From Cloeon dipterum (taxonomy: Eukaryota > Arthropoda > Insecta > Ephemeroptera > Baetidae): 64,000 nt of DNA. Within the stretch, counting starts at the first letter, position 1. Each line of letters begins with the position of its first letter. The notes under the pieces are model-generated. The model ran no database searches, had not been told where the DNA came from, and saw only the letters and a list, made by a program, of their open reading frames with translations. Below, one piece after another: positions 1 through 55,327 of the stretch. The DNA lies in NCBI RefSeq assembly GCF_949628265.1, contig NC_088787.1:25224501-25288500 (forward strand). Direction: 5' to 3'. The position numbers and the translations under genes are program-made.

Positions 1-2969
1 GAAGTGGGTTGGACACTCTTGGCAAAAGAGTGCCGCCAGCTGCATCCGTCAAACCTCCAGGGCCTGGAGTGCCGTTGGAACCAGCTCCTTCAGAAAGTGG
101 CACTATGAAGCTATAATTACATAATGAAGTCTTTTTACTCACCTGGAGCATTTGGATCCGATCCAGCAGGGTTTGAAGGGCCAGAACCAACAAGAGTTGC
201 GGAGTTGGGACCGGCAGTTGAAGAAGGACCTGACCCGGCAGGGTTCAAAGGGTCTGCTATCGATGGATCATCAGGATTTGAAGGAATCATTATAGGGTTG
301 GAAGGGTCTATTGTATTTGATGGGTCCGACACGGCCGGATTCGACGGATCTGCAGGGTTTGATGGATCTAGAGGATTTTTTGGGTCCATAGGGTTTGATG
401 GGTCTGCTGGTTCTTTCCCTGGAGAAAAAGTTCCTCCTCCAGGGGCCGTGATTTTTGGTTTCGGTGGCTTTTGGTTTGACTTTGTTGTTTTGAGAAACCT
501 TGTAGAATTTTTGCTCGTCTTAGAGCACCGCACCATACCGCAGCACTTGATAATTTGAAATCGTCTTTTTTGTTTAGTAATCACGATGACAGTTCTGCGT
601 GGACTGCGCTTTTCAAGGAGGTGAATCTCCTTCATTGATGATGGTGCGAAATTATCTATAAATAAAATTACTTTTGTTGGCAAAACGATCATCCCTGTAA
701 ATAATTGTAACTATAATAATTATAAGTCTCAGCCAGCAGCCATGGATTTGGCCTAGCTGCAGCATCAACATTAGCCGCCGGATTAAAAGTTGAAAAAATC
801 GAAAAATATTAGGCCGTTGAGCATTGCTAAACTTCACTTTTATAAATCTTTCAACCTCTCACGGCAGCGGCAAAATTGCTCAGTCAGCCACCGCCGCCGA
901 GCCAAAATTCAGCAGAAGCCGCGGTTCATCCTGTAATCGCCAAAAATAACGAGGCAGAGACTTCTTATTATATTTGATATTTTAATTGGTACAAGCATTA
1001 AAACCTCGATTTTTCTCAACAAACTGTATTGAAATAGTGTTTTAAACGGTTTGTGTCTTTAAGTTTTCAGTCTTTTTTTGATTAGTTATAGGTCTTAGAG
1101 ATTTATGGAAAAATAATAGTGGATAAATGCTTTTACGTGATTCATCTAATTAAAGTGTAAGAGTCAACTCCGCAAATAAATGTGGTGCTCATTGAATGTG
1201 ATTTAAGTTACGAGCTCCATCAATGGGTTGTTGAACCAGCATATATATAATATGTATAGCCACTACAGGAAATTAATTAAATTTGAGGTCATCAAGTTTA
1301 ACTCGAATTCCCTTCATGCAATCCTTTCCTTAAGTACTTTATTTTAATTTAATATGGCAAATTTTAACCAATATCTGGACGAAAGCTAAAATTGACTTAG
1401 AGACGGAAAGCTTTTATGCGTTTCTTCCCTTTTGACGGCGCAATCCAGTACACGCTCTCCTTTTGTCGCGCCGCAAACTCTAAAATATCAGTTTGAGTGA
1501 GCAAAATCATTTATTATAGAAATTTCTTTCCGGTTTATATATATATATATATAATAGATATTTAGATATTGGGGTATATCCCTTGATAAAATCGACGCGG
1601 AATTTATCTGGGAACATTTTGAGACCAATTGCGTGCCGATCAGACCAAACCCCTAGGACAAGATAGAGTTTGAAGTTTGAAAACGTGATTTTTGCATTTT
1701 CTCTATTAGAATAACATGGAAAATTCACCATATTTTCTGCAAGGGAACCCTTGAAAGGTTTCCACCTGTTCCATCCCACGCGTAAGTTCATCTCCGGTCT
1801 GGAAACCAATTTTGAGGTTTTCCGCACACATAAAAAATTAAATTTGATTTTTTTACGGTTTTACGGCCATTGCGACACGTGAAAAGCACAAGCAAAAATG
1901 GTTTCCTTTATATGAAAATTCGACCGCTCGTTGAATAGTCGACCATGAACCCTCATCTCTTTTTCAAACTTTACCTGATAAACCCTAACAACAATAATCA
2001 TTAATCTTAATAATTATGCATGTACATGTTTAAAATGAGCAATAAAAATAGTAATAACAACCTTTTTCAGGGTACCCCGACCTCAGATTCTCTACGAGGT
2101 CGGTTTTTAATGCTTTTTTCAGCAAATTCGAGCATATTGGTTGATACTCGGCGAAGATTTTTCACAACCTACCCTGATGACCTTTGTCGTGGTACCGCTC
2201 CCTGAGATCGGTCCCAGACCAACCATTTGCAATTTTTCCATCGCCGACGACCATTTTGATGCATCACAGGCACATTTTACAGGAAAATAGCGATATAACG
2301 AACGCGCTTGTGGTGCATAAAATTTGAGATAATGGGTTCTCAATTGTAATATTGCGATTTTTCTTACGCCGTTTAACATTCTGACGTGTCATATGTGCGT
2401 TTCTATTGATGAAGCCTCGATGACGCACGCGAAAAATTTGATTATCATTTGAAAGCAACATTTTTTCGAGATCGTGAACATCCGCTCGGGATTTTTTGGG
2501 TTTGTTCAACATGATTCACGAAAAATAGCATAGTAGCGAAGTTTAAACGCGTGCGGCGCGATTGTCTCGATGGTCAGGCGACCGCAGGGAGAGAGGCGCC
2601 ATAAATACCAAATGTCCCTTGGGCGCAGCAAGTGCTTGTTGCCATAGTTATATAATAGTATACAAGTTGGACAATTAAATACCATACATATCGTGGTTTG
2701 CAAGTCCAATCGATAGTAAAATTAAAGCTATATTTTACTCTTCTACAGTTTAGATTCGATTGATTTTTCAATTGTAAGGGAAAATGCGATTTGTTTTATC
2801 ATCAAACCTGAATGAATTGGATAGCGAAGCAAGCTTTCATTGATGGCTTTTTCCTTGGCATAAACCTTTACCAACATTAAAATGATGAGTTTTGGTGAAT
2901 AGGCGCAATGGTTATAATTACCGCTGCTGCAAAAGTGAGTGCAACGAGGGCGAACGTGTTCGAAGTCAT
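1..2969 (-). CDS. Modular C-type lectin gene A, 5' part (cut by window edge)
   Basis: Exons read from the sequence are 2922-2969 (signal peptide MTSNTFALVALTFAAA, then a GTAATT donor), 2808-2865 (ending ...LLRYPIHS), 143-655 and 1-102 (continuing off the left edge). Phases agree across all joins. The 143-655 exon holds a basic segment (KRSPRR, KQKRRF, CCGMVRC) followed by DPSNP-type proline repeats; the last visible exon is Thr/Pro/Gly-rich. No lectin domain of this gene lies in the window, so the lectin call rests on the near-identical 5' exons of neighbouring gene B, which does continue into lectin domains. A second acceptor at 2853/2854 would give an exon shorter by four codons. The product is expected to be secreted. 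Confidence 0.75.
143..404 (-). repeat. DPSNP-type coding repeat, gene A linker
   Basis: Part of the large 5' exon of gene A. Codons for Asp-Pro-Ser-Asn-Pro and variants (DPLNP, DPKNP, DPSNT) recur with a period of about five to six residues, making an acidic, proline-rich and probably unstructured spacer. The opposite strand therefore shows a misleading GFDGS-type open frame. Nearly the same block is found in gene B; the block in gene C is related but strongly diverged. Confidence 0.85.
656..2807 (-). other. Large intron of lectin gene A with inserted sequence
   Basis: The matching intron in gene B is only about 470 bp. Both ends align with B: about 656-810 matches B 13969-14123, about 1280-1400 matches B 14137-14275, and the right end resumes at about 2795. 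The extra sequence in A is therefore about 470 bp at 811-1280 plus about 1.4 kb at 1400-2790. The larger insert contains a perfect 8-bp hairpin (CCGACCTC ... GAGGTCGG) near 2078-2104. I recognise no coding region or named transposon in it. Confidence 0.6.
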
Positions 2970-3588
2970 CACTAAATACCGCCTGAATTCATCAAAAGTG
3001 ATAGAGTCGCTTCGTGTTCGAATGCCCGTTGTTATAGAGAGGAAAAACTATGCTTGCTCAATTCGATTTCACCAAACAGTGCGAGAAAAGCGGATGCTGT
3101 TCTGTATATTTATGGCTTTGTGTTGTGCACAACTATACAGCGCGTGTGCATTTTGCTTTGTGCATCTCGCTTGACGCAAAACCAATATTTTATTTTATAT
3201 ACAGTAGCATTTCCCAATTTTTAAGGCCTGAGAGTACTATAACTAAAAACTTGCATGTTCATCATTCACTCACACAATGAATTTGATAACTATTATAGCT
3301 CCTCAGTGAATTATTGTTTTAACATCTATCAAATATTAAATTTGCGTGTTATTTGTTAGCCGCGCTCTATAAGGAAAGAAATAAACATCACTGAACTTAT
3401 GGCAAAAGATATAAAAAAAATTCACTCTCTCTACGCACACACATAGATCCTAAATAAACAACCTTAACGAATTCTCGGGATAAAACATGATATTTAATTC
3501 AATCATAATATTTTCTGAAAGGAAATCCCTGTTTGAAGTAAGTAATCACTTTGTTTGATTTGTTTCCATTTCAATTTTGCTTATTCAG
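2970..3588 (-). promoter_or_regulatory. Upstream region of lectin gene A
   Basis: This stretch lies upstream of the gene A start codon and is clearly homologous to 14600-15140 upstream of gene B. Both carry a TATATAAAATA-like stretch on the minus strand (here near 3186-3202) about 220 bp before the ATG. The conservation makes it a likely promoter, but the transcription start is not visible. Small open frames here on the plus strand look like chance. Confidence 0.4.
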
Positions 3589-4244
3589 TGTGTTGCGCGG
3601 GTTCCGCTTGAGAGCGACCCTGAAGCTGTGAAGGCGTTGGAGGCCTCGTTTGAAGTGGCTGTTTTGTACCTCAGGAAGTCATCACCAGAATCATAGGCGT
3701 TTCTTGTCGCCGCGCAGCTGGCCAATTATGGGATTCCGGAGATTGTTCAAACGGTGACAAATTTGGCTTTTTTGTTTATGTTAATTTGCGCCCTTCATTT
3801 AAATTTTGTGTCAAGTTTTTGAACATTTGAAGACGTATTTTCCAATGCTTCGTAAAAATAACCTCTTTGTGTTGATTTCAAATAACACAAGGAGAGTTCG
3901 AGAGTTGAAGGGCCTTCTGCATTGCTAATAGATATTCACAAGACAGTCTTTGCCTGACAAAATATTTAATGAATTAAAATTAATTATGATTAATATTATA
4001 TGCAGATAGTGTTCAAGAAAACTTTGTCGAAATGCGCCAGAGGGACAAAAACTTCAATGGCGATGATTTGCATATGTTGCTGAATTTGGCCAGGTAAATA
4101 ATATTCAAATGTGTGAATTAGTTTATAAACGAATTAAATCAAAACGGCAGGTTGCTAATACTGAGCACTCTAGCACAAAATCTGACTGCTGAAATCTGGA
4201 AGCGAGCGTGCGACATGGAAGGGGCGAGGAGGGCGCGACTTTAA
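3589..4244 (+). pseudogene. MCM-binding protein (MCMBP)-like 3' remnant
   Basis: Three exon-like blocks with splice sites: 3589-3753, 4006-4093 and 4151-4244 (ends in TAA). Translated pieces such as ANYGIPEIVQT, NFVEMRQRDKN, DDLHMLLNLARLL and AEIWKRACDMEGARRARL resemble the C-terminus of MCM-binding protein, which helps unload the MCM2-7 helicase from chromatin. It looks dead: an in-frame TAG sits at 3694-3696, the first and second blocks join out of phase by one base, and no upstream exons are visible. Because it keeps introns it is not a processed copy; it looks like a duplicated 3' fragment of a gene elsewhere. The family assignment is from memory of conserved C-terminal residues. Confidence 0.55.
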
Positions 4245-4508
4245 CATTAAGGTTAGGATCATCAATACCAAAGGAATCATGTTTGGATTTTGTAACAGTT
4301 CAGGAGCGCAGTCCTGCGCCCTTTATTTTTAGCCAAAAATTGTCAGTGGTTCAAATTATTATAATTTTTCATTATTTTTTTTACAGCAGAAAGATGGTTT
4401 TAAAATAAGAATTGAGTTTTCGCTCGTCTCAGCCACGCGTTGCATTCAATATTTTTATTTTCAAACAAATTGTTTTTTTCGTAATCCTGATACCAAAAGC
4501 TACTTGCT

Positions 4509-7085
4509 CTACACGGATTTTTCGCAAACGTAATAACATGGGTGCCCACAGCTAACGTCATACCAATGTCCGTCTCTAAAGCATTAGTTTGTCAGTTAAG
4601 TGAGATTTACTTTAAAATTAAAATAATACATATTGATCACGCAGTCCTCTGAAGCGAACGCTGCTGGCTCGTTCGGAGCCCAGCCAACGTAATCCAGTGT
4701 CGCGTTAGATTCCCATTTTGTGTAGTTGGACTGGCCTCTCTTGTTGAGTCCGGAGTAAACCCAATTTCCTTCAATACCTGCAACGGCCCCATGTACAAAC
4801 GTTGGAAACCACCTATTGTTTTAACCTTTTCTCATGATAGCCCACTGGACACAAAAGTTTTCCTGGACAGTCTCTGCAGACGCCAGCACCAATCCCTTGT
4901 CAACGCATTTCTGCTTTGCCGTGTCGTAGGCAACCTGACAGAAATTATATTCGAGTATTAAATTTTAAGTTTTTACAAGAAGCAATGTTTACAGCGTCAG
5001 GGAAAGCTTCAAATTGGCCTGTAAATCAATTACAGATCAGAAATATTTTTCTAGATTTGAGGAAAAGATTAATACCGGTTTTGCAATTGTCAGTTGGCGC
5101 AGGGTTAGACTCGCAAACGTATGAAATTGACGCTGTGCAACCTATCTCAACCCACAGAGAATTCCTTAAAATACCGGTTAGAATTTTAAATTCCATTTTA
5201 TCTGAACTCTCACTGGAATGCAGCACAGTGTGCTCCAGTCCAAGATTTCAAGTTATAGGAAGGAGCAAATCCTGAATAGTTCAATGGCACTCCATTTGCC
5301 CAGTACTGGAAGTACATGGATCCCATTTTGTTGAGTGAGTGCCACAGCTGCGCTCCCTTTTTGCCTTTAAATTATAGACAAGGAAGGAATGAATTGAATG
5401 TACACCGCAATTATAATAAGAAAAAATCACCCGCGGCGTAAATGAGAAATTGCACGCAATAATTTTCCTGTGGAGTTTCCAATGTCGCAAGATCTCCGTT
5501 ATTATTTTTGCAATCGTCCTTAGCGTCGATCCATTTTTTCTATTTAACAAAAGAGATACTTAGCGGAGTAATTATCAATATCGCTTTGAGCATTCCTTAC
5601 AGTTGCCGTCGAAATAGTATAGCTTGAAACTGCAAAAGGCGCGAGTGAGAATTATGAGGGAAGAAAATCAGTAAATAATATTACATCCATCGCACGGGTG
5701 TTTGAAATCATTGGTCTCGCACACGTAGCGCCAGGATAAGCCACAGGGCGAATCAACCCAGTGCTGATTGCTAATTGTTAACTCTTTGTCAGTTGGTCGC
5801 GTATTTACCAAATAGTAATTTTATACAGAAAAACTACGCAGTCCTCGGTAGCAAATGCTTCAGGGTTATTTACGTCCCAGTCGGTGTAGGTTAGCGCGCT
5901 ACCGCTCAGCCACTGGCTATAATTGCTCAGTCCGCGCTTGTCCATTCCTATCCAATGCTGAGTCACTCCGAATCCTTGAATAAAATCTTGAATGAGTTTT
6001 ATCTTTTAAAAATTTCCTGTGTAAAATATCGTATCACTGTATTGTAAAATATTGTGTATAGATTGAATCGAAGCACATATAAAAATAAGCTAAAGCTTAA
6101 AAAATGATTTAGTTTTTTATGCGTTGTCTCATGCATGGTACGATTTTGTTTTGCTTGTCAGAGTTGAGAGTTAAAATGTTTTTTATTTTCACGTCGTAAA
6201 AATCATTTTCTATTATTTCGATAAAAATTGAATCCTTCTCATGGTATTGAAAAACAGAAATTTCAATTATTAATAATGCTGTCACCAAAGCATAGCAAAA
6301 ACAAGTGTAGTAATCAAGTATAAGATTACCCATCTCGACCAGATACTGTCCCAAGCATAAATTTTCCTCGGGAGTCTCGGCACTAACGAGTGAGCTATTT
6401 TTCATAATACACTCGAACTTCGCGTCGTCGTATATTCTCTGTATAAATTGGAATTCATAGCATGGATTTAATATTTTTTTTTTAATATGGAAAATTGAAC
6501 AGAAACGTGTGTTTTACCGTGTCCGAGGAGAGGATAAACTTGTATTCTGATTACAGGTATCAATTACGAGAGGGCTACACACTAAAAGACAAAGTCATAC
6601 TAGCGCAGACGTCTTGCTTAGCTGGCGACTCACAAACGTAAATATTGGAGCCCATGCACGGTGTGTCGATCCACTCGTCGTTTCTATGAATTTGTTATTT
6701 CATTGGATACGATCGAGAAAAGTATGCATACAAGTAGGCTGCGCAGTTTTCAGTCTTCAGCTGAGCCGGTTCGCCAGCTTTCCAGGCGGTGAATGAGATG
6801 GAAGTTCCGTCAAACCACTGCAAATAGTTGCTCTGGCCGATTTTGTTCAAGCCGATAAAGACGATGCTCGCAGATTTTCCTGAATTTTAATTTAACACTT
6901 ACGGGATTTACAAAATGTTTGCGATATAAGCTTTAGGCTTACCAGCCATGGCGATTTTGTCTTTAATGCACGCGTGATCTTTGTCCGTTTTCACTGTGGC
7001 CAAGTCCGCTGATTTCAGTTTACACGCCGCCCTGGCTGCACCCCATGTTTGCGTGTCAGTTGAAATTGTGTACGTTGACGCCACT
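4509..7085 (-). repeat. Four-domain lectin unit 3 of gene B (domains 9-12)
   Basis: Domains 9-12 repeat the order and signature of domains 5-8. Domain 9 (about 6590-7085) has STDTQTWGAARAAC and GEPAQLKTENC. Domain 10 (about 5680-6560) has GMDKRGLSNYSQW and NNPEAFATEDC. Domain 11 (about 5070-5640) has LWHSLNKMGSMYFQYW and SYNLKSWTGAHC. Domain 12 (4509 to about 4945) has SGLNKRGQSNYTKW and YYVCEKSV. Gene C lacks this unit and stops after its domain 8, so the unit looks like an extra internal duplication in B. Coordinates are approximate except for the stop codon. Confidence 0.75.
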
Positions 7086-10000
7086 TAAAAACGGATTTTA
7101 AGAAAGTAAAGAGTTTCACAAGTTTTAAAGTCAAAGTTATTTTTCAAAAATCTAAAATTCTAACTCAATGTATTCATTATACAGAAATGTGAAATTAAGG
7201 CGCAAAAGGTTTGGATCGCAGTCTTATCTTGCTATAAAATTATATTTTATTTTGGCTTCAAAAAATCACTCACGTCCTTGACAGGGGTCCACAATCACAG
7301 CCTTTTCGCAAACGTAGTAGTTTCCCACAACGCAGTTAATATCATACCACTGGCCCTGTCTGAAAAGGCGAAAACTCTTCATTTTTATTGAGCCAAACTA
7401 CATGCAGTAAATCATACATGTTGAGCATGCAATCTTCACTGGCGAACCCTGACGGCTCGCCGGGCGGGAAGCTTCTATAAGTGAGAGGGGCACCGTTTTC
7501 CCATTTTGTGTAGTTAGTCTGACCGATTTTATTCAATCCGGTATAAACCCAGTTGTCATAAACGCCTAAATTGCAAACTTAAAATTTATATTTTTAGATA
7601 CACGAAAGTAAACAACCCTTTTTCAATATCGCTCTTTGAACGCAAATATTTTCCGTGACCGTCTCCATATTCGCAATAGCCATTCCTTTCGATTTGCATC
7701 TCAGTTTTGAAGTAGCATAATCGACCTTACGTCTTTGGTTAGATTCAATATTTAAAAACACAATGCAACTTACTTGCTCTGCGAACACTTCAAATTGTCC
7801 TGCGAATTGCTGCTTATAAATCACGCGTGAAATAACAATTTGATCCCTACCATCCGTGCAGATTTCTTTCGGACTAGGCTTTGATTCGCAAACGTACGGG
7901 ATCTCCCAGGTACAGGGAATGTCACCCCAAATACCACTCCTAGTATTTAATTTTCATTTTGAAACAGACCAGGCCTGTTAGAATAGTCTTACTCGAATCC
8001 TCCGCAATGCTCTCCAGTCCAAGACTTCAAATTGTAGCTCGGGTCAAAGTCACTGTAGGTGAGTGGCTCGCCGTTTGCCCATTGGATGAAGTAAACTGTG
8101 CCCAACTTGCTCAACGAATGCCACATCCGCTCGTCCTTTTTACCTGCATTCATAAACTTTTGACTAAAAAGTGTACAAAATTTTGCACATTGCGAATAAT
8201 ACGCTTCATGAAAACAATTTTAGAAATTTTTAATAGTAATTCTACATCGATTTCGTCTTGGATCATGTATCAGATTTTTTATTTAAAAATTAAATATCGG
8301 GCTTCATTTAATAACTTTTACCACCTCTAAATGCCAATTTTGTGTTCAAGCGTATCGATATAACGTAGCTTTGTTGGATTGTAATATAAGTGAAGTGCGC
8401 ATTACATTATTCTAAACGTCGCTCTAAATAAAAAAATATCTCCGATGCGATCCACTTATATTATTAGTAATATGGTAAATTTGATGTTCTAGTAGACCGA
8501 AGGTGTGTATTTAAAAAATTCAATCTATCCATTTTTCTTACCAGCCATATATATTTTATATCTGACGCAAAAATTCTCCTCTGGCGTCTCCATGGACACA
8601 AGATCTCCGCCCAGTTTCTTGCACTCCTCCGATGCATAAATCCAATTTTTCTGAAAGGTTGCAACTTACAAATATTAATGTGGTGATAGTTCGCATACTC
8701 ACGTTATTGTTTGTGACAATCGTGTAAGTGGAAACTAATAACAATATTATTAGAAGATGTTTTCTTTTAATTTTTAATTGCGTACAATCTTCACATGGGT
8801 CTTTGTAGTCGTCCTCGCACACATATCTGTAGGCTACTCCGCAGGGCGAGTCATGCCAGTGATGGTTTCTGAAGCACAACTAAAAATTCATGTCCCAAAA
8901 ATAAATGTAAAAACGAACAAGGCAACAGCGCAATGTTCGCTGGCAAATGCCTCAGGGTTGTTGACGTCCCAGTCCGTGAAAGTCAGAAGTTCGCCGTTGG
9001 ACCACTTTGTATGATTGAGGGTTCTTCTCTTGTCGAGACCGATTGTGAGTGGCGTGGACGACAACTCTTTGAACAATAATGTACGTCGTTTTTGTTTTTA
9101 ATATTTCGGCTTTTACCCAGTCCCGCGATGTACTGTTGCAAGCACATGCTTTTAGAGGGGTTGTCCAAATCCACAATCGTCATGTTCTTTTTTAAGCATT
9201 CGAACCGCGCATCGTCATACACTCTCTGCAGGTTTCACAAATTAAAATTTCCCGTAAAAACGTTTCTGTCATTGCCATATTACCGCTTCAGTAGATACTG
9301 AGAAGCTGTATTCTAAAATGGAATATAGAAAATGAGTTACGCATCTTTTTGGGAAAATTGGCTATTACTTGAGCAGACGTCGATAGGTGCTGGGGATTCG
9401 CAAACGTAAGCGTTCGATCCTTTACAATCGACGTCCATCCAGGCACCGTCTCTGCAATATTTACATGGGACCGTCTTGAAACGGTTAATATTTTAAATTA
9501 AAATCCCAACTTGTACGCAGAGCAATGTTCCGTCTTAAATTGCGCTGGTTCACCAGATTTCCAATAAGTCGCAGTCGGCGTACTTCCGCTGTACAATGAC
9601 GTATAGTTGCTCCAGCCCATTTTATTTAGACCGTGGAAAACGATGCTTGTAGTTTTTCCTGCGAGTGCACCAAAACGTGAATTTTAACCCACTATTAGAG
9701 TGTTTTTGAAATTCATTTCACCGGCCAAGTCGATTTTGTCCTTGACGCAAGCGTGCTCCTTCGCGCTGTCGATGCTGACCAGATCTCCGCCCTGCTTTTT
9801 GCACTCGGCTCTTGCGCCACCCCAGGTCTTTGTGTCGGTCGAAACTTTGTATGTGGAAGGCACTGTGAAAACATTGCAAGACTATTTTTATTATTTGATT
9901 TCCTCCGTTTTTTGCTGATATTTGTCATACATTTAATTTAAATCTGTTCTAAATATAATCCAACTCACAAAGTCTACATAAAAACAGTTTGACTTTGTGT

Positions 10001-13000
10001 ATTGCTTGGATATGTAAAAAAATATCATTTTGAAGACACTATATAATGCTGGGTAATTGTGCCTTTGCAATAAATTAAATTTTGGCAGGACGTAACCCTT
10101 GTTTTAGAATGTTTTACGTTACGCGGTTTTTAAAATGCTTTTTCTTTTAAACTATTAGCAAAATAAAGAGGTAATTTGTGTCCAAAATTTCAAGTGTAAT
10201 AAAAAATTTATTTAGAATAAGACAGGTGGTAAACGTTTTGAAAAAATGCACTCCTTACGTCCTTTGCAGGGGTCGATAACAATTGTCTTTTCACAGACGT
10301 AATAAGCTGATAATTCGCAGGGCAAATCGTACCAATGGGAGAAGCTGTTTGCAAACAATTGAGTCGAGTTTCGAGTGCGAATGAAGAAATAAATACAAAT
10401 GGATCCCGCACTGCTCATGAGGGAACTGCGCTGGTTCGCCTCTGTTCCAATCCAGATAAGTCAGAGGTGCTTCATTGTACCACTTGGTGTAATTGCTCGC
10501 GCCTTTCTTGTTCAGACCGTTCCAAACGTAGTTGAAGGTCAAACCTTTAAAAATAAACTCAATTAATCGCGATTAATTTTTGATTTGAAAATTTCCAAAC
10601 CTTTCTCGTCAAGTAAACGCTGAATGCAAATGTTTTCCTCTCTAGTCTCAGGTACTGACAAAGCCATCCCATTTTTTTTGCACTCAATAATTGCCGCGTC
10701 AAAAGTGAGCTACACACCGTGAGATTAAAAAAAATGAACAGTGCCTCGACCAACGAGGCCTTCCTTACCACAGATGTGGATGCAACGAATTGATCTGTAT
10801 GGCAAAGAAATTTTAATTTTGAACACTCTTACTTTAAAATTTGCATACCAGGATCGCAGCGGTCGATCTGTGCAGATTCACAAACGTACCGCAACTTCCA
10901 GTCGCATGGAACGTCTCCCCATTTTCCATATCTTAGAAGTTACAGTAGGATTGGAATTTAAAAAAATTTAAAACAATAAATTTTTTTATCACATACTCAA
11001 ATGCTCCACAACTCTGCCATGGGAATTCAAATGGGTTTCCAGGTGACCAACCAACGTAAGTCAATGGCTCTCCGTTGTTCCAAGAGTCGAAATTCGGCTG
11101 TCCAAACATATTCAATGAGTGCCACACGCGATCAGCTGCCGTAAGACCTTTTCTTAACCACTAAAATTGTAAATTCTATTTTTTTCAACAGACTCCATAC
11201 CCGCGTTTTTTAAGATAGACATGACGCAGATATTTTCCTGTGGTGTTTCCAAAGAAGTTAGTTCCATTCCAAGTTTCTTACAGTTCAGTCTCGCTTGTGC
11301 CCACGAGGCCTTTTTCCCCAAATATTGTGCTCCAATAGTACCATAAGTAAACATAAAATAATAATTATACCGTGTCGTTAGAAAGCACATGTTTTGTTGT
11401 CACTGCAAAATATAAAGTGTAAATAATTTTTACAAATAAAACAAATTTATACTATTAAAACAAGGGTCGAGGACGACTGCATCTTCACAGGCATAACGCA
11501 GGGGTTGAGTGCACGAAACATCAAACCAATGGAAATTGCTATGAATTTGTCATATGTCAATTAATAAATTAAAAACCATAAATATATTTCATATTTTTCA
11601 ATTGAATTGCAGCTATAGTGATTTTGATAAATTCGACCAGAAATATTTTTTTCTAATATGGCAACTACACGGCTCGCATTTTTTTATTTTTAGCAATTAT
11701 TCCTACTTAGCTTGCACGCATTTTTCAGTGCCAAACTGGGCTGGGTTGCCTGCCGCCCAGTCGAGATAGAGTAAAGGTTTTGCGTTAACCCAAGACGTGT
11801 AGTTCGCATTTCCAGTCATTGTTAAACCGATATAAACGGGTTCCCTGGCGAGCCCTAACAGTTTTAAATCTTTAATAAATATTTTAAATTAATTAAGTCC
11901 CATATGATCTTGCCAAGCATGGTGAGCTGCCTTTGGAAGCATGTGTTCTGATCTCGAGTCTCCAGGCTAACCAGATCCATTTTCTTCTTCTGACATTCCG
12001 CCCTTGCATCGTCAAAAGACAACTTTGTACTCGATATTTCAACCGGTTGCTCGTCTAAGAATAACACTTTACACCAATTCGCTGGTCAAAAAAAGCATTA
12101 TTTTCACTTGTGCACATGTCGAATGGCTGGGGTGTTTCGCAAACGTAGTTGTAGGTGTCTGTGCAAGAGGCTCCAATCCACTTTCCTCCGCTGGAACAAA
12201 ATGCTCAAGAAAAGATTTTGATACACGCGGCGCGAGAGTTACGAAATCAAAGAGCAGTCTTCAGTGTCAATCTTCGCAGGGGCGCCAGAATTCCAATCGG
12301 TGTAGGTGAGTGACTGTCCGCTCAGCCACTGAGAGTAGTTTGGTAGGCCGATTTTGTTGAGTGCTTGCCAAAACGGAGTCGCTGTTTGTTCTTAAAAATC
12401 GGAAACCGCTGAGTGATCAGGAAATCGAATTTCTTGATGGAACTTACTGGCATTTTCAATTATGAATTTAACGCAGGTATTTTCTTCCGTGGTTTCCATG
12501 TTTACAAGGTCCATGCCTTTCTTCTGGCACTCCAATCTTGCGTTAGCCCATGTTTGCTGAAAATTTATGTCACTCAAAAGTTTACACATCGACCGAAAGA
12601 AATAAAAATGTCATATATTACCTTGTCAGCCGAAAGAGTGTAATTAGATTTGCCTGATTGAAATGTTTTAATTTTATTGCTTTGTAAAAAAACTTTTATA
12701 CTTTCGAAGCAGGGTGGACGTGGAGGAGTTGTGGTTGGTGGAGTTTGACCGGACGGTAGAATCGTTGCGCTTGATACCACAAATGTAGTTTGAATATCAA
12801 ATTTTCATCAATCTTTCATGCATGACACATGTCTTTATTTCACAACCGCAGAAATAAATTACTTCCTCGCTCTGTTCCCTTATCGAATTTCCCAATGCAA
12901 AATGAAGCGTATCATTTCAAAAAGTATCGTCTAGTGGCAATTTGTGTCCTCAATCATTGGAGTTCGGACAAATTTGGGTCGTGACTATTTTTTTATAACA

Positions 13001-14599
13001 AATTGATATGATAAAATCGTGCTTTATCTAAAAGAAAAGATGATTTGAAAAAGTAAGATTTTTCTTTGGCAAAAAGTATAACCTTAAATAAATTTTGGTA
13101 TGATTATTGGATAAATTTAAAAATATAGGTCATGTAAATTTTTTTGTTACTTTGTGCTACCAGGCCCTGGCGTTGTGATTATGATGTCTGAGGCCGCAGT
13201 TGTACCACCTGGAGCCCTAGTCGTAGCTCCCGGAACCCCAGTCGTAGTTCCTGGGGTTCCAGTTGTTGCTCCTGGTGCGCCCTGGACAACAGTAGTTCCA
13301 CCTGGAGCTGGAGGAAGTGGGTTGGACACTCCTGGCAAAAGAGTGCCACCAGCTGTACCCGTCAAACCTCCAGGGCCTGGAGTGACGTTGGAACCAGCTC
13401 CTTTAGAAAGTGGCACTGTGAAGCTATAATTACATAATGAAGTATTTTTACTCACCTGGAGCATTTGGATCCGATCCAGCAGGGTTTGAAGGGCCAGAAC
13501 CAACAAGAGTTGCGGAGTTGGGACCGGCAGTTGAAGAAGGACCTGACCCGGCAGGGTTCAAAGGGTCTGCTCTTGACGGATCATCAGGATTTGAAGGATT
13601 TATTATTGGGTTGGAAGGGTCTATTGTATTTGATGGGTCCGACACGGCCGGATTTGACGGATCTGCGGGGTTTGATGGATCTAGAGGATTTTTTGGGTCC
13701 ATAGGGTTTGATGGGTCTGCTGGTTCTTTCCCTGGAGAAAAAGTTCTACCTCCAGGGGCCGTGATTTTTGGTTTCGGTGGCTTTTGGTTTGACTTTGTTG
13801 TTTTGAGAAACCTTGTAGAATTTTTGCTCGTCTTAGAGCACCGCACCATACCGCAGCACTTGATAATTTGGAATCGTCTTTTTTGTTTAGTAATCACGAT
13901 GACAGTTCTGCGTGGACTGCGCTTTTCAAGGATGTGAAGCTCCTTCATTGATGATGGTGCGAAATTATCTATAAATAAAATTACTTTTGTTGGCAAAACG
14001 ATCATCCCTGTAAATAATTGTAACTATAATAATCATAAGTCTCAGCCAGCAGCCATGGATTTGGCCTAGCTGCAGCAGCAACATCAGCCGCCGGATTCAA
14101 AGTTGAAAAAATCGGAAAATATCAGGCCGCAGGAAGTTCATTAAATTTGAGGTCAACAAATTTAACTCAAATTCCCTTCGTCCAATCATTTCCACAGTTA
14201 ATTGCTTTAATTTAACATCACAAATTTGAACCATTATCTGCAAGAAAGCTAAAATTGACTTTGGACGGAAAGCCTTTAGATTCAAAGTGTTTTTATTGCG
14301 GATCAGCAGAGCAACAATGCTCCACCTCCACACCTCCCCACATTCAGAATACAACAGATAAAAATACAAAACTTTTTTGTTTTTGATAACAGAGGGAATA
14401 AGAAAATAAAATAAATAAATTTTTATCAGCAAACCTGTGTGAATTGGATAGCGGGGCAAGCTTTCATTGATGCCATTTTCCATGGCATAAACCTTTACCA
14501 ACATTAAAATGATGAGTTTTCGTAAATAATATGCGCAATGATTATAATTACCACTGCTGCAAAAGTGAGTGCTATGAGGGCGAATGTGTAAAAAGTCAT
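4509..14599 (-). CDS. Modular secreted C-type lectin gene B, 12 lectin domains
   Basis: 5' exons: 14552-14599 (signal peptide MTFYTFALIALTFAAV), 14435-14492, 13456-13968 (basic Cys segment then DPSNP repeats), 13151-13415 (mucin-like Thr/Pro/Gly), 12702-12769 (PPTTTPPRPPCFE), 12622-12653. Then 12 lectin domains of three exons each, for example domain 1 at 12448-12556, 12243-12390 and 12108-12190. The stop codon TAG is at 4509-4511, right after YYVCEKSV. Each domain shows a helix-1 Cys, a second ENxCV Cys, W..GEP..C, W.D..C and YVCE, plus a linker Cys (DPC, DVC or EIC) before the next domain. No domain has EPN or QPD; the position reads EPA, NPA, NPE, EPS, APA or YNL. Likely an extracellular pattern-recognition or adhesion protein of roughly 1800 residues. 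Every join checked is in phase; no break was seen. Confidence 0.85.
7270..9865 (-). repeat. Four-domain lectin unit 2 of gene B (domains 5-8)
   Basis: Domain 5 (about 9372-9865): STDTKTWGGARAEC, GEPAQFKTEHC, DGAWMDVDC. Domain 6 (about 8780-9290): GLDKRRTLNHTKW, NNPEAFASEHC, HHWHDSPC. Domain 7 (about 7850-8735): MWHSLSKLGTVYFIQW, SYNLKSWTGEHC, WGDIPC. Domain 8 (about 7270-7810): GLNKIGQTNYTKW, GEPSGFASEDC, GNYYVCEKAVIVDPC. Domains 5 and 6 are almost base-for-base identical to those of gene C, introns included; domain 8 is clearly diverged from its C counterpart. Confidence 0.75.
10240..12556 (-). repeat. Four-domain lectin unit 1 of gene B (domains 1-4)
   Basis: Domain 1 (12108-12556): KQTATPFWQALNKIG, GAPAKIDTEDC, GGKWIGASC. 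Domain 2 (about 11480-12057): VYIGLTMTGNANYTSW, GNPAQFGTEKC, FHWFDVSC. Domain 3 (about 10850-11390): VWHSLNMFGQPNFDSW, GNPFEFPWQSC, WGDVPC. Domain 4 (about 10240-10710): GLNKKGASNYTKW, GEPAQFPHEQC, AYYVCEKTIVIDPC. Shared signatures tie domain 3 to 7 and 11 (WHSLN) and domain 4 to 8 and 12 (GLNKxGxxNYTKW, YYVCEK), which reveals the four-domain period. Confidence 0.75.
13456..13717 (-). repeat. DPSNP-type coding repeat, gene B linker
   Basis: Inside exon 13456-13968. It is a proline/aspartate/asparagine repeat nearly identical to that of gene A, with a handful of substitutions. It separates the basic Cys segment from the mucin-like exon and is expected to be a flexible extracellular spacer. Confidence 0.85.
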
Positions 14600-15384: not shown

Positions 15385-17945
15385 TTACACAGTTTTCTCG
15401 CAAACATAGTAGTTTCCAAAATCGCAGCTAATATCATACCACTGGCCTTCTCTAAAATGAAAAAAAAAGTTTTTTGAGACAACCACAAGAAATTAAAACT
15501 TGCGTGTTGAAAATGCAATTTTCATAAAGAAACGCTGCTGGCTCGCCAGGTGGGAAGCCGCTGTAAGTGAGAGCGGCACCATTCTCCCACTTCGTGTAGT
15601 TGGTCTGACCGATTTTGTTCAATCCCGCATACACCCAGTTATTGTAAGCACCTTTTACATTATAATTTTTACGTAAAATGAACTTAAATAGATTGGAAAT
15701 CCACCTTTCCTCAGAATCGCTCTTTGAACGCAAATATTTTCTGTTACGGTTTCCATATTCGCGAGAGCAGTTCCGCTCTCGTTGCATCTCTGCAATGAAG
15801 TGGCGTAATTGACCTTAAATATTTGTTTTAGTTAAATTCTTTGAAATATAGAATATGTGGCTCACTCGCATGGCGTAAACCTCAAATTGACCTACAAAAA
15901 TTTGCGTTAATATCAAGTGCATAGAAATATTTTATTAACCTCAGTTTAAAGCAAGCTATTCATATTGTGAGTCTCATTTCACATTTTGTGTTTTTACTCA
16001 AATATTGCATTCTGTAGTGACACAAAGAAAAAGAGAACGCGATACAGTAAGGAAGCTGCTTTAAATTTCAACTAAAAATTATGACTTACCTTTATATTGA
16101 CATCTACCATCGAATAAAAAAATTAACCTACCGTTTATGCAAATTTCTTTGGGGCTTGGATTCGATTCGCAAACGTACGGGATCTCCCAGGTACAGGGAA
16201 TGTCCCCCCAAATGCCACTTCTAGTATTATTTAATTTTTATATTGGAACAGACCAGGCCTGTTAGAATAGTCTTACTCGAATCCACCGCAATGCTCTCCA
16301 GTCCAAGACTTCAAATTGTAGCCTGGGACAAAGTCACTGTAGGTGAGTGGCTCGCCGTTTGCCCATTGCTTAAAGTAAACTGTGCCCAACTTGCTCAAAG
16401 AATGCCACATCCGCTCGTCCTTTTTCCCTGATATTTCATACTTAATTTACAGCCAAATGATTTGCGTATAATATGTATGAAATAATTAAAAAGATTCCCT
16501 CTGGAATGCATTTTATAATCTTATGAGGATTATAGAAACGCTCGCAAAATTTAAAAAAATTTTGCCATGTCACATTTTTCCTGAAAAACAAAGTGAAGAA
16601 ATCAATTTATAAATAGTCATACCAGCCAGATATATTTTATATCTGACGCAAAAATTCTCCTCTGGCGTCTCCATGGACACAAGATCTCCGCCCAGTTTCT
16701 TGCACTCGTCTGATGCAAATACCCAATTTTTCTGGAAATTTAGAACTTACAAATATTAATAAGCTTTTATGATTCGCACTCTTACGTTGTTGTTTGTGAC
16801 AATCGTGTAAGTGGAAACTAATAAAAATTTACTTATAATGTTTTTTTTTAATTATTCATTGCGTACAATCTGCACATGGGTCTTTGTAGTCGTCCTCGCA
16901 CACATATCTGTAGGCTACTCCGCAGGGCGAGTCATGCCAGTGATGGTTTCTGAAGTACAACTAAAAATTCATGTCCCAAAAATAAATGTAAAAACGAACA
17001 AGGCAACAGCGCAATGTTCGCTGGCAAATGCCTCAGGGTTGTTGACGTCCCAGTCCGTGAAAGTCAGAAGTTCGCCGTTGGACCACTTTGTATGATTGAG
17101 GGTTCTTCTCTTGTCGAGACCGATTGTGAGTGGCGTGGACGACAACTCTTTGAACAATAATGTATGTCGTTTTTGTTTTTAATATTTCGGCTTTTACCCA
17201 GTCCCGCGATGTACTGTTGCAAGCACATGCTTTTAGAGGGGTTGTCCAAATCCACAATCGTCATGTTCTTTTTTAAGCATTCGAACCGCGCATCGTCATA
17301 CACTCTCTGCAGGTTTCACAAATTAAAATTTCCCGTAAAAACGTTTCTGTCATTGCCATATTACCGCTTCAGTAGATACTGAGAAACTGTATTCTAAAAT
17401 GGGATATAGAAAATGAGTTACGCATCTTTTTGGGAAAATTGGCTATTACTTGAGCAGACGTCGATAGGTGCTGGGGATTCGCAAACGTAAGCGTTCGATC
17501 CTTTACAATCGACGTCCATCCAGGCACCGTCTCTGCAATATTTATATGGGACCGTCTTGAAACGGTTAATATTTTAAATTAAAATCCCAACTTGTACGCA
17601 GAGCAATGTTCCGTCTTAAATTGCGCTGGTTCCCCAGATTTCCAATAAGTCGCAGTCGGCGTACTTCCGCTGTACAATGACGTATAGTTGCTCCAGCCCA
17701 TTTTATTTAGACCGTGGAAAACGATGCTTGTAGTTTTTCCTGCGAGTGCACCAAAACGTGAATTTTAACCCACTATTAGAGTGTTTTTGAAATTCATTTC
17801 ACCGGCCAAGTCGATTTTGTCCTTGACGCAAGCGTGCTCCTTCGCGCTGTCGATGCTGACCAGATCTCCGCCCTGCTTTTTGCACTCGGCTCTTGCGCCA
17901 CCCCAGGTCTTTGTGTCGGTCGAAACTTTGTATGTGGAAGGCACT
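15385..17945 (-). repeat. Four-domain lectin unit 2 of gene C (domains 5-8)
   Basis: Domain 5 (about 17450-17945) and domain 6 (about 16865-17380) match gene B domains 5-6 almost base for base through exons and introns. Domain 7 (about 16130-16820) reads SYNLKSW-like as GYNLKSWTGEHC. Domain 8 (15385 to about 15890) has GLNKIGQTNYTKW, GEPAAFLYENC, WYDISC, YYVCEKTV and then stop. Domain 8 differs markedly from B domain 8 while 5 and 6 barely differ. Confidence 0.75.
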
Positions 17946-18118
17946 GTGAAAACATTGCAAGACCATAAATCAAATTTGATTTCCTTCGGTTTTTTGCTGC
18001 TGTTTGTCACACATTTAATTTAAATTTTGTCTAAACAGAATCCAACTCACAAAGTCTACATAAAAATATTTGGACTTGGTGCATTGCTCGGAAATCTAAA
18101 AATTAAACATTTTGAAGA

Positions 18119-18193
<75 letters not shown>

Positions 18194-21100
18194 ATGCTGG
18201 GTAAATGTGCCTTTGCAATAAACGAAATTTTGGCAGGATTTAACCCATGTTTTAGAATGTCTTACGTTACGCTTTTTTAACTACTCTTTTTCTTTTAAAC
18301 TATTAGCAAAATAAACTGGAAATGTGTCCAAAATTTTAAATGGAATAAAAAGTTTCCTTAAAATAAGATAAGTGGCAAACTTTTCTAAAAAATTTGCACT
18401 CCTTACGTCCTTTGCAGGGGTCGATAACAATTGTCTTTTCACAGACGTAATAAGCTGATAATTCGCAGGGCAAATCGTACCAATGGGCGAAGCTGTTTGC
18501 AAAAAATTGAGTCGAGTTTCGAGTGCAAATGAAGAAATAAATACAAATGCATTCCACACTGCTCATGAGGGAACTGCGCTGGTTCGCCTCTGTTCCAATC
18601 CAGATAAGTCAGCGGTGCTTCATTATACCACTTGGTGTAATTGCTCGCGCCTTTCTTGTTCAGACCGTTCCAAACGAAGTTGTTTGTCAAACCTTGAAAA
18701 ATGAACTCAATTAATCGCGATAAATTTTGATTTAAAAATTTCCAAACCTTTCTCGTCAAGTAAACGCTGAATGCAAATGTTTTCCTCTCTGGTCTCAGGT
18801 ACTGACAAAGCCATCCCGTTTTTTCTGCACTCAATAACTGCCGCGTCAAAAGTGAGCTACACACCGTAAGAATTTTTTAATGAAAAATTAAAGAGTGAAG
18901 AGTGCCTAGACCAACGAGGCCTTGACTCAAAATACTGACTATCGAGAATGACATTGAACCAATTTCAACGTGCCATCAAGTTTAAAATTGCAACAGGGAA
19001 TTTTTAAGTTTCTTACCACAGAAGTGGATGCAACGAATTGATCTGGATGGCAAAGTAATTTTAATGTTAAACCCTCTTACTTTAAATTTTGCATACCAGG
19101 ATCGCAAGGGTCAATTTGTGCAGATTCACAAACATATCGCAACTTCCAAGAGCATGGAACGTCTCCCCATCTCCCGTACCTAAGAATAATAACAATAGAT
19201 CGGAATTAAAGCATGCTTTTGACTTTTGGCACAAAAAAAAAACACATACTCGAAAGCTCCACAGCTCTCCCAGGGTATCTGCGCTGGATTTCCTGGCGCC
19301 CAGTCATTGTAAGTCAGTGGCTCTCCGTTGTTCCAAGAGTCATAATTCGGCTGTCCAAACATATTCAAAGAGTGCCACACGCGATCAGCCGCCGTTATGC
19401 CTATATATATATATAGGTTACATATCTAGGGATATTTATTTTAATTTGCCACCAAACTCAATACCTGCAGACTTTAAAATGGACTTGACACAGATATTTT
19501 CCTGCGGTGTTTCCATAGAAGTCAGTTCCATTCCAAGTTTTTTGCAGTTTAATCTCGCTACTGCCCACGATGCCTTTTTTATCATTAAAATTTTAAAATA
19601 TACAACACCAATCACATGGTTCCATCAAATATATACCGTGTCGTTTGAAAGAACGTGTTTTGTTGTCACTGCAAATTAAAGTGTGCATATTAATGTTATT
19701 AAAAAATAATTTGCTATTCATACTGCTGAAACAAGGGTCAAGAACAACTGCATCTTCGCAGGCATATCTCAAGGGTTCAGTGCAAGCAACATCAAACCAA
19801 TGGAAATTGCTTTAAATTTTTTAAATTATCAGTCCACAAAAATGATTTATAACATTAATGGCTATTTAAATATTAAAAAAAACAGATGAATTAATTTGTG
19901 TTGCGAGATTGGCATTCAATTTTACTTGGCTTGCACGCATTTTTCGGTGCCAAACTGGGCTGGGTTGCCTGCTGCCCAGTCGAGATAGAGTAAAGGTTTT
20001 GCGTTAACCCAAGTCGTGTAGTTCGTATTTCCAGTCATTGTTAAACCGATATAAACGGGTTCCCTGGCGAGCCCTAACAGTTTTAAATCTTTAATAAACA
20101 TTTTAAATTAATTAAGTCCCTTATGATCTTGCCAAGCATGGTGAGCTGCTTTTGGAAGCATGTGTTCTGATCTCGAGTCTCCAGGCTAACCAGATCCATT
20201 TTCTTCCTCTGACATTCCGCCCTTGCATCGTCAAAAGACAACTTTGTACTCGATATTTCAACCGGTTGCTCGTCTAAGAATAACACTTTACACCAATTCG
20301 CTGGTCAAAAAAGCATTATTTTCACTTGTGCACATGTCGAATGGCTGGGGTGTTTCGCAAACGTAGTTGTAGGTGTCTGTGCAAGAGGCTCCAATCCACT
20401 TTCCTCCGCTGGAACAAAATGCTCAAGAAAAGATTTTGATACACGCGGCGCGAGAGTTACGAAATCAAAGAGCAGTCTTCAGTGTCAATCTTCGCAGGGG
20501 CGCCAGAATTCCAATCGGTGTAGGTGAGTGACTGTCCGCTCAGCCACTGAGAGTAGCTTGGTAGGCCGATTTTGTTGAGTGCTTGCCAAAACGGAGTCGC
20601 TGTTTGTTCTTAAAAATCGGAAACCGCTGAGTGATCAGGAAATCGAATTTCTTGATGGAACTTACTGGCATTTTCAATTATGAATTTAACGCAGGTATTT
20701 TCTTCCGTGGTTTCCATGTTTACAAGGTCCATGCCTTTCTTCTGGCACTCCAATCTTGCGTTAGCCCATGTTTGCTGGCAAATAAGGGGCATTGAAAAGT
20801 TGATGCATTGACCGGAATAAATAAAAATCTAAAATTTTACCTTCTCGGTGGAAAGAGTGTAATTTGATTTGCCTGAATTTATTGTTTAATATTCAATGCT
20901 TCTTTAGTTAAAATAATAAATTTACTTTCAAAGCAGGGTGGACGTGGAGGAGTCGTAGTTGGTGGAGTTTGATCGGACGGTAGAGTCGTCGTGCTTTATA
21001 GTATAATACGTTTGAATATTTAAGTCACATATTTGATAAATCTTTAGGCATAACATATATGTGTGCCCAATTTTTAGCATATTTTCATTTTACTTCAAAA

Positions 21101-23116
21101 ATTTTATAATAAAAAAATGCGACTCTCTCTAACAATCAGAAAAACAACGTTAAAAATTTCTTATACAACCAAAAATTAGCAAGAGATGTGAAAAGTTCCG
21201 ATATTTTGATCTTAACGCGACGATAGATTAAAAATCTATACATATATGTTTGCAAGTTCCCTTCAACATTTCATGCATTTTTTATCATATTTATTTCCAC
21301 TGCATTGACAATTAACTAGTAAGACTGAACAATTTTATATACCACTAACAATAAGAAAAATACTAAAAAGTGATATCGACCCCTAATCAATTTTATCTAT
21401 GTACTTATATTTGAAACTTAATGTTTCCTTACTTTGTTGCACCAGGCCCTGGCATTGTACTTCTGGTGCCTAGTGCTGGAGTTGGAGTTGTATCTGCGCC
21501 ACCAGGAGTAACAGTCGTAGCACCTGAAATAACCGTTGAAGCTCCCTGGACAACAGTTGTTGCACCCGGAGCCAGAGTAGAGGTGATTTGACGAGGACTA
21601 GTATTGGTTACGCCTTGCGAAGACGTTCCTCCAGCTGCAGTGATCGTACTTTCAAGGCCAGCACCCTCTGGCAGAATAAAAGAATTGTGATGGAGATAAA
21701 ATAAGAAATCAAAGTCTTTATTTTATTCACCGGTAGCTTTTGGATCCATCCCTACAGTGTTTGAAGGGCTATTAGAACTGGCAAGATTTGGCGAGTTAGG
21801 ACCAGCAGTTGAAGGAGGATCTGACCCGCCAGGGTTCAAAGGGTCTGTTTTCAACGGATTAGCAGGATTTTTAGGATCTATTATCGGGTTGAAAGGGTCC
21901 GTTTGATTTAATGGGTTCTGCACTTCTGGATTCATTGGATCTTCCGGATTAGGGCTGTTTGATGGATCTTCAGGACTTGACGGAGTTTTAGAATTTGATG
22001 GTTCCTCAGGATTCGACGGATCCACAGGGTCTGAAGGATTTGAAAGATTTGCTGGATCCAGAGGATCCAATGCGTTCGGTGGCTCTTTCCCGGCGGGGGG
22101 AAAAGTTCCTCCTCCAGGAGCCGTGATTTTTGGTTTCGGTGGCTTTTGGTTTGTCTTTGTTGTTTTGAGAAACCTTGTAGAGTTTTTGCTCGTCTTAGAG
22201 CACCGCACCATACCGCAGCACTTGATAATTTGGAATCGTCTTTTTTGTTTAGTAATTACGATGACAGTTCTGCGTGGACTGCGCTTTTCAAGTTTGTGAA
22301 GCGTCTTGTCTAGTGAGGGTTCAAAATCATCTAGAAAGAGTAATATGTTGATGATTTTTAGTTTCAATATACTCTCTGTTCATAATAAAATAGTCATCTA
22401 AAATTGAGATTGGAACAAAGAACAAAGATGGATAAAAAATATTGGCACGAAATAAATTAAAAGCTTTAGATTAATTCACTTGGTGCGTTTTTAAAATTTC
22501 CTGTTTTTTTTAATTCATCAGTTATCCAGGCTATAAACTTCATCCAATACATTCTAGGTTAGGCCTATGCTCAATCTAATTGTCAACGTCATGCGTGATT
22601 ACTCCGTTGTTATTTTGAAGAACTTATTGTTATCTACACCCCACCGATCGAAGTGTAAAAAATACATGTATTAAACCATCGAATCAAATTAGTCAAATTA
22701 AATTTGCAGAAGGAAATTCGCACACAAAATACTCGCTGAAGTCGTAACATCCAATTTCTTCTTGTCTATTTTTAAGCTTTAACACGTTGGTCATTTTCAC
22801 AACGATTTTTTACCGTTTATCCCTATGGAGATATAATATATGGCATCACTTTTCCCGAATTTTTCTTTGTGCATCGTAAGGAATTTCCCATACACACGAG
22901 CATTAAATGCTCGTAATTAAATATAAATTATATACAATAAATAGACCGTCAAGATGCACGAACCTTTGTGAATTGGATAACGGAGTAAACTATGGTTGGT
23001 GGCATTCTTGCTGGAAAAGTCCTATTCCGAAATATTAATATTTTGAACTGTTTTGTGCCTGGCGCAAAACTTACCGCTGCTACAAAAGTGGCCACAGCGA
23101 GCGCGAGCGGGTACAT
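15385..23116 (-). CDS. Modular secreted C-type lectin gene C, 8 lectin domains
   Basis: 5' exons: 23075-23116 (signal peptide MYPLALAVATFVAA), 22964-23006 (NATNHSLLRYPIHK), 21731-22330 (basic Cys segment and diverged proline repeat), 21433-21667 (Thr/Gly/Pro-rich), about 20933-20990 (PPTTTPPRPPCFE) and a short exon near 20845. Eight lectin domains follow, each of three exons. The stop codon TAA is at 15385-15387 directly after GNYYVCEKTV, at the equivalent point of the fold where gene B domain 12 ends. Joins checked keep phase: exon 3 ends in phase 1, and the mucin exon ends AA then C to give Asn. As in B, none of the domains has EPN or QPD. The linker Cys before each domain and the ENxCV Cys may form an extra disulfide in every module. 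No disabling change was seen. Confidence 0.85.
18122..18187. repeat. (TA)33 microsatellite
   Basis: An uninterrupted run of TA dinucleotides followed by CACACA, in the intron between domain 4 and domain 5 exons of gene C. The paralogous intron of gene B reads CACTATATAATG at about 10037, so the run expanded in C (or shrank in B) after duplication. Confidence 0.97.
18395..20775 (-). repeat. Four-domain lectin unit 1 of gene C (domains 1-4)
   Basis: Domain 1 (about 20333-20775) and domain 2 (about 19728-20275) are nearly identical to those of gene B, introns included. Domain 3 (about 19100-19650) is diverged (YNDWAPGNPAQIPWESC against YVGWSPGNPFEFPWQSC in B) and its flanking introns carry indels. 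Domain 4 (about 18395-18865) is close to B. Confidence 0.75.
21731..22072 (-). repeat. Proline-rich coding repeat, gene C linker
   Basis: In exon 21731-22330. Repeat units such as DPSNP, DPMNP, DPFNP and EPSNS are arranged as in genes A and B but differ in sequence and number, unlike the adjoining basic segment, which is almost unchanged. Confidence 0.8.

Positions 23117-35731: not shown

Positions 35732-55327
<19,596 letters not shown>

Follow-up and report, generated by a model that had tools for sequence, protein, structure and literature searches.

Three adjacent genes of Cloeon dipterum, termed A, B and C, are arranged in tandem on the minus strand with intact reading frames in the window, the 64,000-nucleotide stretch analysed here (G000:C2:25224501-25288500 of the genome searched, which comprises 190.1 Mb in 10 contigs). 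The best explanation for these genes, to which we assign a probability of roughly one half, is that they arose by recent duplication as giant members of a large family whose secreted proteins are built from a short cysteine-containing box, a linker and C-type lectin domains (CTLDs), and that they likely serve as disulfide-linked multivalent recognition proteins. A short conserved box that precedes lectin domains at more than 100 places and belongs to no Pfam family offers a way into the question of how a large secreted repertoire is assembled and perhaps oligomerised. Genes A, B and C illustrate how such proteins lengthen to twelve domains by steps of four, and how sugar-binding residues can be lost while the fold and the box remain constrained. 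If the function is immune, the family would constitute a large, clustered and fast-changing set of secreted recognition proteins with a directly testable head.

The exons of A, B and C were curated by hand from the genomic DNA, with splice sites, frame and stops checked. Two attempts at automatic gene finding split exons wrongly and were replaced by the hand-curated models. The models contain no internal stops, and their introns, of median length 56-58 bases, are of the GT-AG type except for one GC donor in every gene, at its tenth exon, and an additional one in C. Poly(A)-like hexamers lie 44-68 bases past the stops, which is a weak sign in AT-rich DNA. Gene A extends beyond the window, inside which lie its ATG at 2969, exons 1-3 and part of exon 4; in the flanking DNA that was read, all of its CTLDs are found to the left of the window and the gene ends at window-relative position -8953, giving a total of 50 exons, 1807 residues and 12 CTLDs. 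The features are as follows, in window positions.

15385..23116, minus strand: gene C, ATG at 23116 and stop ending at 15385; 35 exons, 1318 residues, 8 CTLDs.
22964..23116, minus strand: gene C signal-peptide exon (23116-23075) and short exon 2 (23021-22964), with a hydrophobic start.
22158..22268, minus strand: gene C CCG box, TVIVITKQKRRFQIIKCCGMVRCSKTSKNSTRFLKTT, immediately behind KRSPRR and identical in A, B and C.
21433..22157, minus strand: gene C Pro/Asp/Ser spacer (remainder of exon 3, to 21731) and mucin-like exon (21667-21433).
18407..20872, minus strand: gene C CTLDs 1-4, with a short PPRPPC exon ahead (20993-20926).
15385..17943, minus strand: gene C CTLDs 5-8.
4509..14599, minus strand: gene B, ATG at 14599 and stop ending at 4509; 50 exons, 1793 residues, 12 CTLDs.
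14435..14599, minus strand: gene B signal-peptide exon (14599-14552) and exon 2 (14492-14435).
13796..13906, minus strand: gene B CCG box.
13151..13795, minus strand: gene B DPSNP spacer (to 13456) and mucin-like exon (13400-13151).
10259..12653, minus strand: gene B CTLDs 1-4, with a short PPRPPC exon ahead (12769-12702).
7274..9862, minus strand: gene B CTLDs 5-8.
4509..7083, minus strand: gene B CTLDs 9-12, placed by the domain tree as a diverged duplicate of the 5-8 block.
1..2969, minus strand: gene A, 5' part, with signal exon (2969-2922), exon 2 (2865-2808), box exon (655-143) and a mucin exon running from 87 past the window edge.
483..593, minus strand: gene A CCG box.

Other genes are also present in the window. 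At 59082-60650, on the plus strand, a farnesoic acid O-methyltransferase-like domain (PF12248) is followed by a DM9-repeat open reading frame (PF11901), perhaps within one gene; DM9 proteins include lectin-like ones. Parts of a molybdopterin dehydrogenase-like gene of the xanthine dehydrogenase/aldehyde oxidase type (CO_deh_flav_C, MoCoBD_1) and of a furry/MOR2-PAG1-like gene (PF14222) lie at 30514-33753 on the plus strand and at 48338-50716 on the minus strand.

All three proteins display the same order of parts: a hydrophobic start, a short pro-region ending in KRSPRR, the 37-residue box, a spacer and the CTLDs. The spacer, of 217-241 residues, is rich in Pro, Ser, Thr and Gly and contains DPxNP units, and it shares with the KRSPRR motif, the box and the mucin-like exon its presence in A, B and C. 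The shared layout of three adjacent genes proposed by the sequence-only reading is thus borne out, and its counts of eight domains in C and twelve in B are exact, by alignment of the CTLDs and, for B, by the 12 stretches of the protein assigned to Pfam Lectin_C (PF00059; E 8.5e-118, 387 bits against a cut-off of 22.6). No Pfam family was detected in the N-terminal 303 residues of A at E values up to 1, and the earlier view that the architecture lies outside named families holds as far as Pfam and the literature searched. The proposed secreted, multivalent design also agrees with the signal-like start, with the 8-12 CTLDs and with the lack of any membrane anchor, as no such hydrophobic stretch was found beyond the start (maximum KD19 past residue 30 of 0.95-1.16). 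The proteins terminate two residues beyond the last YVCEK, with no transmembrane segment and cytoplasmic tail.

The CCG box, a name coined in this analysis, has the core [KR][KR]xxII[KR]CCGxxxC. In A, B and C its 37 residues carry a net charge of +10, with a pI of 11.1, and include three cysteines. The sequence-only reading had treated this basic cysteine block as a trait of the three genes; the block is indeed present in them, but it is not private to them, being an N-terminal module found genome-wide. An 86-residue query spanning KRSPRR and the box matched 31 places, of which three were strong and lie in this cluster (E at most 3.1e-41) and 28 were weaker (the next at 1.8e-4). Three further queries gave 61, 19 and 96 matches, and the union comprises at least 156 places, with matches up to E ~0.4, some of them weak. 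CTLD places were pooled to 376 (106 + 28 + 150 + 79 of 150 + 13 of 150, the remainder overlapping places already pooled). Of the 156 boxes, 129 have a same-strand CTLD place in the 6 kb that follow, the nearest at a median of 2.7 kb, against a mean of 0.7 for random positions (maximum 5, 200 rounds) and 8 when strands were flipped. Upstream on the same strand a CTLD place was found at 60 of 156 boxes, as expected from tandem clusters, and on the opposite strand at 8. When the 150-place CTLD list was used alone, 106 of 156 boxes were linked (random 0.35, flipped 6), while the 106-place list alone gave 18 downstream, 8 upstream and 2 opposite. For the remaining 27 boxes the pooled lists contain no CTLD place; five of these boxes are located at C3:8.41-8.43 Mb, where weak CTLD matches are present (L020/L021). 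Thus, A, B and C are giant members of what is apparently, judged from sequence, a large and undescribed box-CTLD family.

Nineteen stretches of 10 kb, containing 25 boxes, were read in detail; they comprise mostly the better KRSPRR-box matches, were chosen with Lectin_C places known and are not a random sample. Every box with at least 4.5 kb of room was followed by a CTLD match downstream (15/15, some weak, for example E 0.03 in L020), compared with 3/15 upstream and 0/15 on the other strand. Taking all 25 boxes together, 20 had a CTLD match downstream and five, with less than 1.8 kb of room, had none; one of the 25 had a match on the other strand. A signal-like ATG occurs within 600 bases upstream of 19 of the 25 boxes, at a distance of 150-575 bases in other members, and on the antisense strand of 4 of 25; at the other six boxes no signal-like start was detected by this criterion. 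With a crude choice of acceptor, the box exon of other members starts in phase 1 in 14 of 23 cases, in phase 0 in five and in phase 2 in four. In two of the stretches (L031 and L033), poly-Thr-rich open stretches lie between the box and later CTLD matches, or beside them.

The boxes are concentrated in the terminal tenths of chromosomes (87 of 156, against 20% expected), and most of these lie at one end of C1 (41) or of C4 (32). Dense clusters are seen at C1 39-42.9 Mb and C4 33.5-36.1 Mb, towards one chromosome end each, and of the 151 intervals separating adjacent boxes 79 are shorter than 15 kb, with a median for those of 6.9 kb. Another recent tandem array is seen at G000:C2:6339498-6380408, where four Lectin_C places with the same score (54.5 bits) are spaced ~13.5 kb apart.

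Within the lectin array of A, B and C, 31 of the 32 CTLDs contain six cysteines and one, CTLD8 of gene C, contains five. The four conserved cysteines are kept in an alignment of the 32 domains, with C21, C93, C106 and C114 invariant in the twelve of B; besides these four canonical residues a fifth cysteine sits in the helix, in an ENxC-like context, and a sixth in the linker, mostly in a DPC-like one; the helix cysteine probably pairs with that of the linker. The last CTLD of A and of B carries one extra cysteine (SCGHPCYYVCEK; B 4509-4575), which is absent from C. The tryptophan motif W-x-D/E ahead of the third cysteine is present in 29 of 32 domains. In contrast to the preserved fold, which Pfam assigns to Lectin_C, neither EPN/QPD nor WND was found in any of the 32 CTLDs (27 of them distinct), and classical sugar binding is therefore unlikely. 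Thus, the designation of these domains as lectins stands for the fold and is doubtful in the sugar-binding sense.

The missing canonical residues fit a second explanation, in which the three genes encode structural or adhesive extracellular proteins, with stalk and CTLD array placed in a matrix (egg adhesive, peritrophic matrix, cuticle or underwater secretion) and crosslinked by the box. The long spacer rich in Pro, Ser, Thr and Gly would fit such a protein as well, and the extra conserved cysteine of each CTLD would suit a rigid, crosslinked rod. Recognition is better suited by the other box loci, where 15 of 25 CTLD fragments keep QPD or EPN (partial fragments with E at most 0.1 that reach the profile end), and an expansion that is large and clustered is found more typically among recognition genes; secreted CTLD proteins that form families of this kind often have that role. 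A structural role is accordingly regarded as possible but clearly less probable than recognition.

The history of the arrays can be followed in a tree of the 32 CTLDs, in which the deepest forks are not resolved. Domain 5 pairs with 9, 6 with 10, 7 with 11 and 8 with 12, while domain 4 joins 8 and 12. This pairing points to duplication of a four-domain block, of which C has one fewer, and on the evidence of the tree the arrays grew by four-CTLD blocks. All 32 CTLDs start in phase 1, with exon phases 1-0-1-2 in 24 of them and 1-1-2 in the other eight, where exons one and two are fused. Across 6.5 kb of DNA the identity between A and B is 96.4%, and C resembles B at 92-95.5% in several segments 0.3-1.5 kb long and at 74-77% in others. 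Substitution in the CTLDs is constrained, with dN of 0.012-0.026, dS of 0.07-0.18 and dN/dS of ~0.15-0.17 (first 870 residues in pairs with C). Between A and B, at 3590-3760, a short plus-strand remnant resembling an open reading frame lies inside a duplicated stretch (3499-9942, with its copy ~13.5 kb to the left), and it looks like a broken unrelated gene carried along in the duplication.

In the mechanism proposed for the recognition proteins, a proprotein convertase would cut at KRSPRR and expose the box as the mature N-terminus, and the box cysteines, odd in number (three), would link chains through disulfides. Protein C contains 51 cysteines, and since the 48 outside the box form an even remainder, one or more of the box cysteines may join chains, a step of parity reasoning only; proteins A and B contain 76 each, and the extra cysteine of their CTLD12 makes the count outside the box odd. 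The stalk, with O-glycans, would hold the head apart from the CTLD array, and 8-12 CTLDs would provide avidity through many weak contacts to protein or non-canonical glycan ligands, ligands of both kinds being proposed because the canonical Ca2+ and sugar residues are gone. Mannose-receptor proteins offer an analogy in suggesting that a CTLD array lacking the canonical sites could have high avidity for proteins or unusual glycans. The likeliest role would be to recognise and clump microbes in the haemolymph or at a wet surface, and A, B and C may accordingly have an immune function.

The charge of the box and the possible convertase site ahead of it are also compatible with a lectin-carried antimicrobial peptide precursor, in which the cationic cysteine peptide is cut off and kills microbes that the CTLDs target. 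Release of a free cationic peptide had been suggested by the sequence-only reading, but the positions of the basic motifs do not favour it. KRSPRR, which contains dibasic motifs, precedes the box on its N-terminal side, and the box itself holds another (KRR); in A, B and C neither dibasic nor RxxR/RxxK motifs were found in the segment leading from the box to CTLD1, so that cleavage at KRSPRR would expose the box rather than release it. Although another type of protease may cut behind the box, its closeness to a signal-like start in other members (19/25) gives it the look of an N-terminal head, and the precursor explanation is distinctly unlikely.

In all three gene pairs the box has dN = 0, with dS of 0.04-0.13, whereas the signal/pro part and the spacer have dN of 0.28-0.32 and dS of 0.50-0.56 (pairs with C). 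Since the dS of the box falls far below the ~0.5 of its flanks in pairs with C, gene conversion may share in the identity of the three boxes. It is quite improbable that recent conversion alone maintains this identity in a box that has no function of its own, as the C-C-G and the cysteine four residues on are invariant in 17 aligned boxes from five chromosomes, an invariance due in part to the choice of sequences, the aligned boxes having been found by similarity to the box. No clear PDB relative of the box was identified (best E 0.06, unrelated), and of 45 stretches matching the box pattern in viral contigs none was confirmed. A structure prediction for 69 residues containing the box reached a pLDDT of 46 and was not used as evidence.

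That the 5' exons and the lectin exons belong to separate genes lying side by side is very improbable, for although signal-like ATGs also occur within the CTLD parts (B 6333, 6136 and 5593; C 19135 and 18566; A -7136 and -7333), splicing is phase-consistent and unbroken in three copies, none of the three genes has a signal-like ATG between the box exon and its first CTLD, and boxes and CTLDs are linked on the same strand at 129 of 156 places. By one criterion, signal-like ATGs were also detected upstream of the box, at 14084 in B and at 2481, 998, 771 and 765 in A.

A broader form of the recognition reading is put forward tentatively. The CCG box would be an undescribed N-terminal disulfide head that oligomerises a secreted lectin family of ~130-160 loci in one genome, concentrated towards chromosome ends. 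Genes A, B and C would then represent a branch in which sugar binding was given up for very high valency through duplication of CTLD blocks, a soluble counterpart of the mannose-receptor design.

Long tandem CTLD arrays are common to A, B and C and to the mannose receptor family (MR, PLA2R and DEC-205, with 8-10 tandem CTLDs), in which many CTLDs likewise have no sugar-binding residues. The best PDB matches to a profile of the twelve CTLDs of B are PLA2R (E 2.8e-64), the yolk sac IgY receptor (1.9e-63) and DEC-205 (6.1e-63). In contrast to that family, A, B and C lack a membrane anchor and carry the CCG box and a mucin-like stalk at the N-terminus, protein B has no ricin-type or FN2 domain (only Lectin_C scores above the Pfam cut-off), and the 8 or 12 CTLDs include a repeated four-domain block; the likeness is at the domain level. 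Collectins and other oligomeric lectins of their kind are secreted recognition lectins joined via N-terminal cysteines and provide a further analogy, and only an analogy, as their head is different and A, B and C present a CTLD array instead of one CRD, with no collagen region seen.

Among insects, immulectins (IML) are tandem-CRD CTLD proteins with lineage-specific expansion, as are A, B and C, and the PxxC motif that ends their first CRD (PMC7379682, in the part drawn on here) is comparable to the linker cysteine of the CTLDs described above. In contrast, immulectins have two CRDs, mostly with EPN or QPD, and the part of the source drawn on here describes no cationic cysteine box or mucin stalk in them, whereas A, B and C have 8-12 CTLDs without EPN/QPD. 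The same part of that source divides insect proteins into CTL-S (one CRD), IML (two, expanded) and CTL-X (extra domains), and as the classes are set out there A, B and C match none of them in CRD number. CTL repertoires are large in bivalves and variable in arthropods according to the part of PMC10140915 drawn on. The main texts, as consulted in part, of the Cloeon dipterum genome paper (180 Mb; PMC7250882) and of a further paper on this species (PMC11491810) do not contain the word 'lectin', and neither the box nor the box-CTLD architecture was found in the literature searched, the scope of which leaves aside subscription papers, preprints and supplements.

The closest likeness is found within the genome itself, where the other CCG-box lectins have the same box, a signal-like start upstream and CTLDs downstream on the same strand. 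They differ from A, B and C in that the loci read contain fragments of 1-4 CTLDs within 4.5 kb, often with QPD, and these other members are thus probably few-domained.
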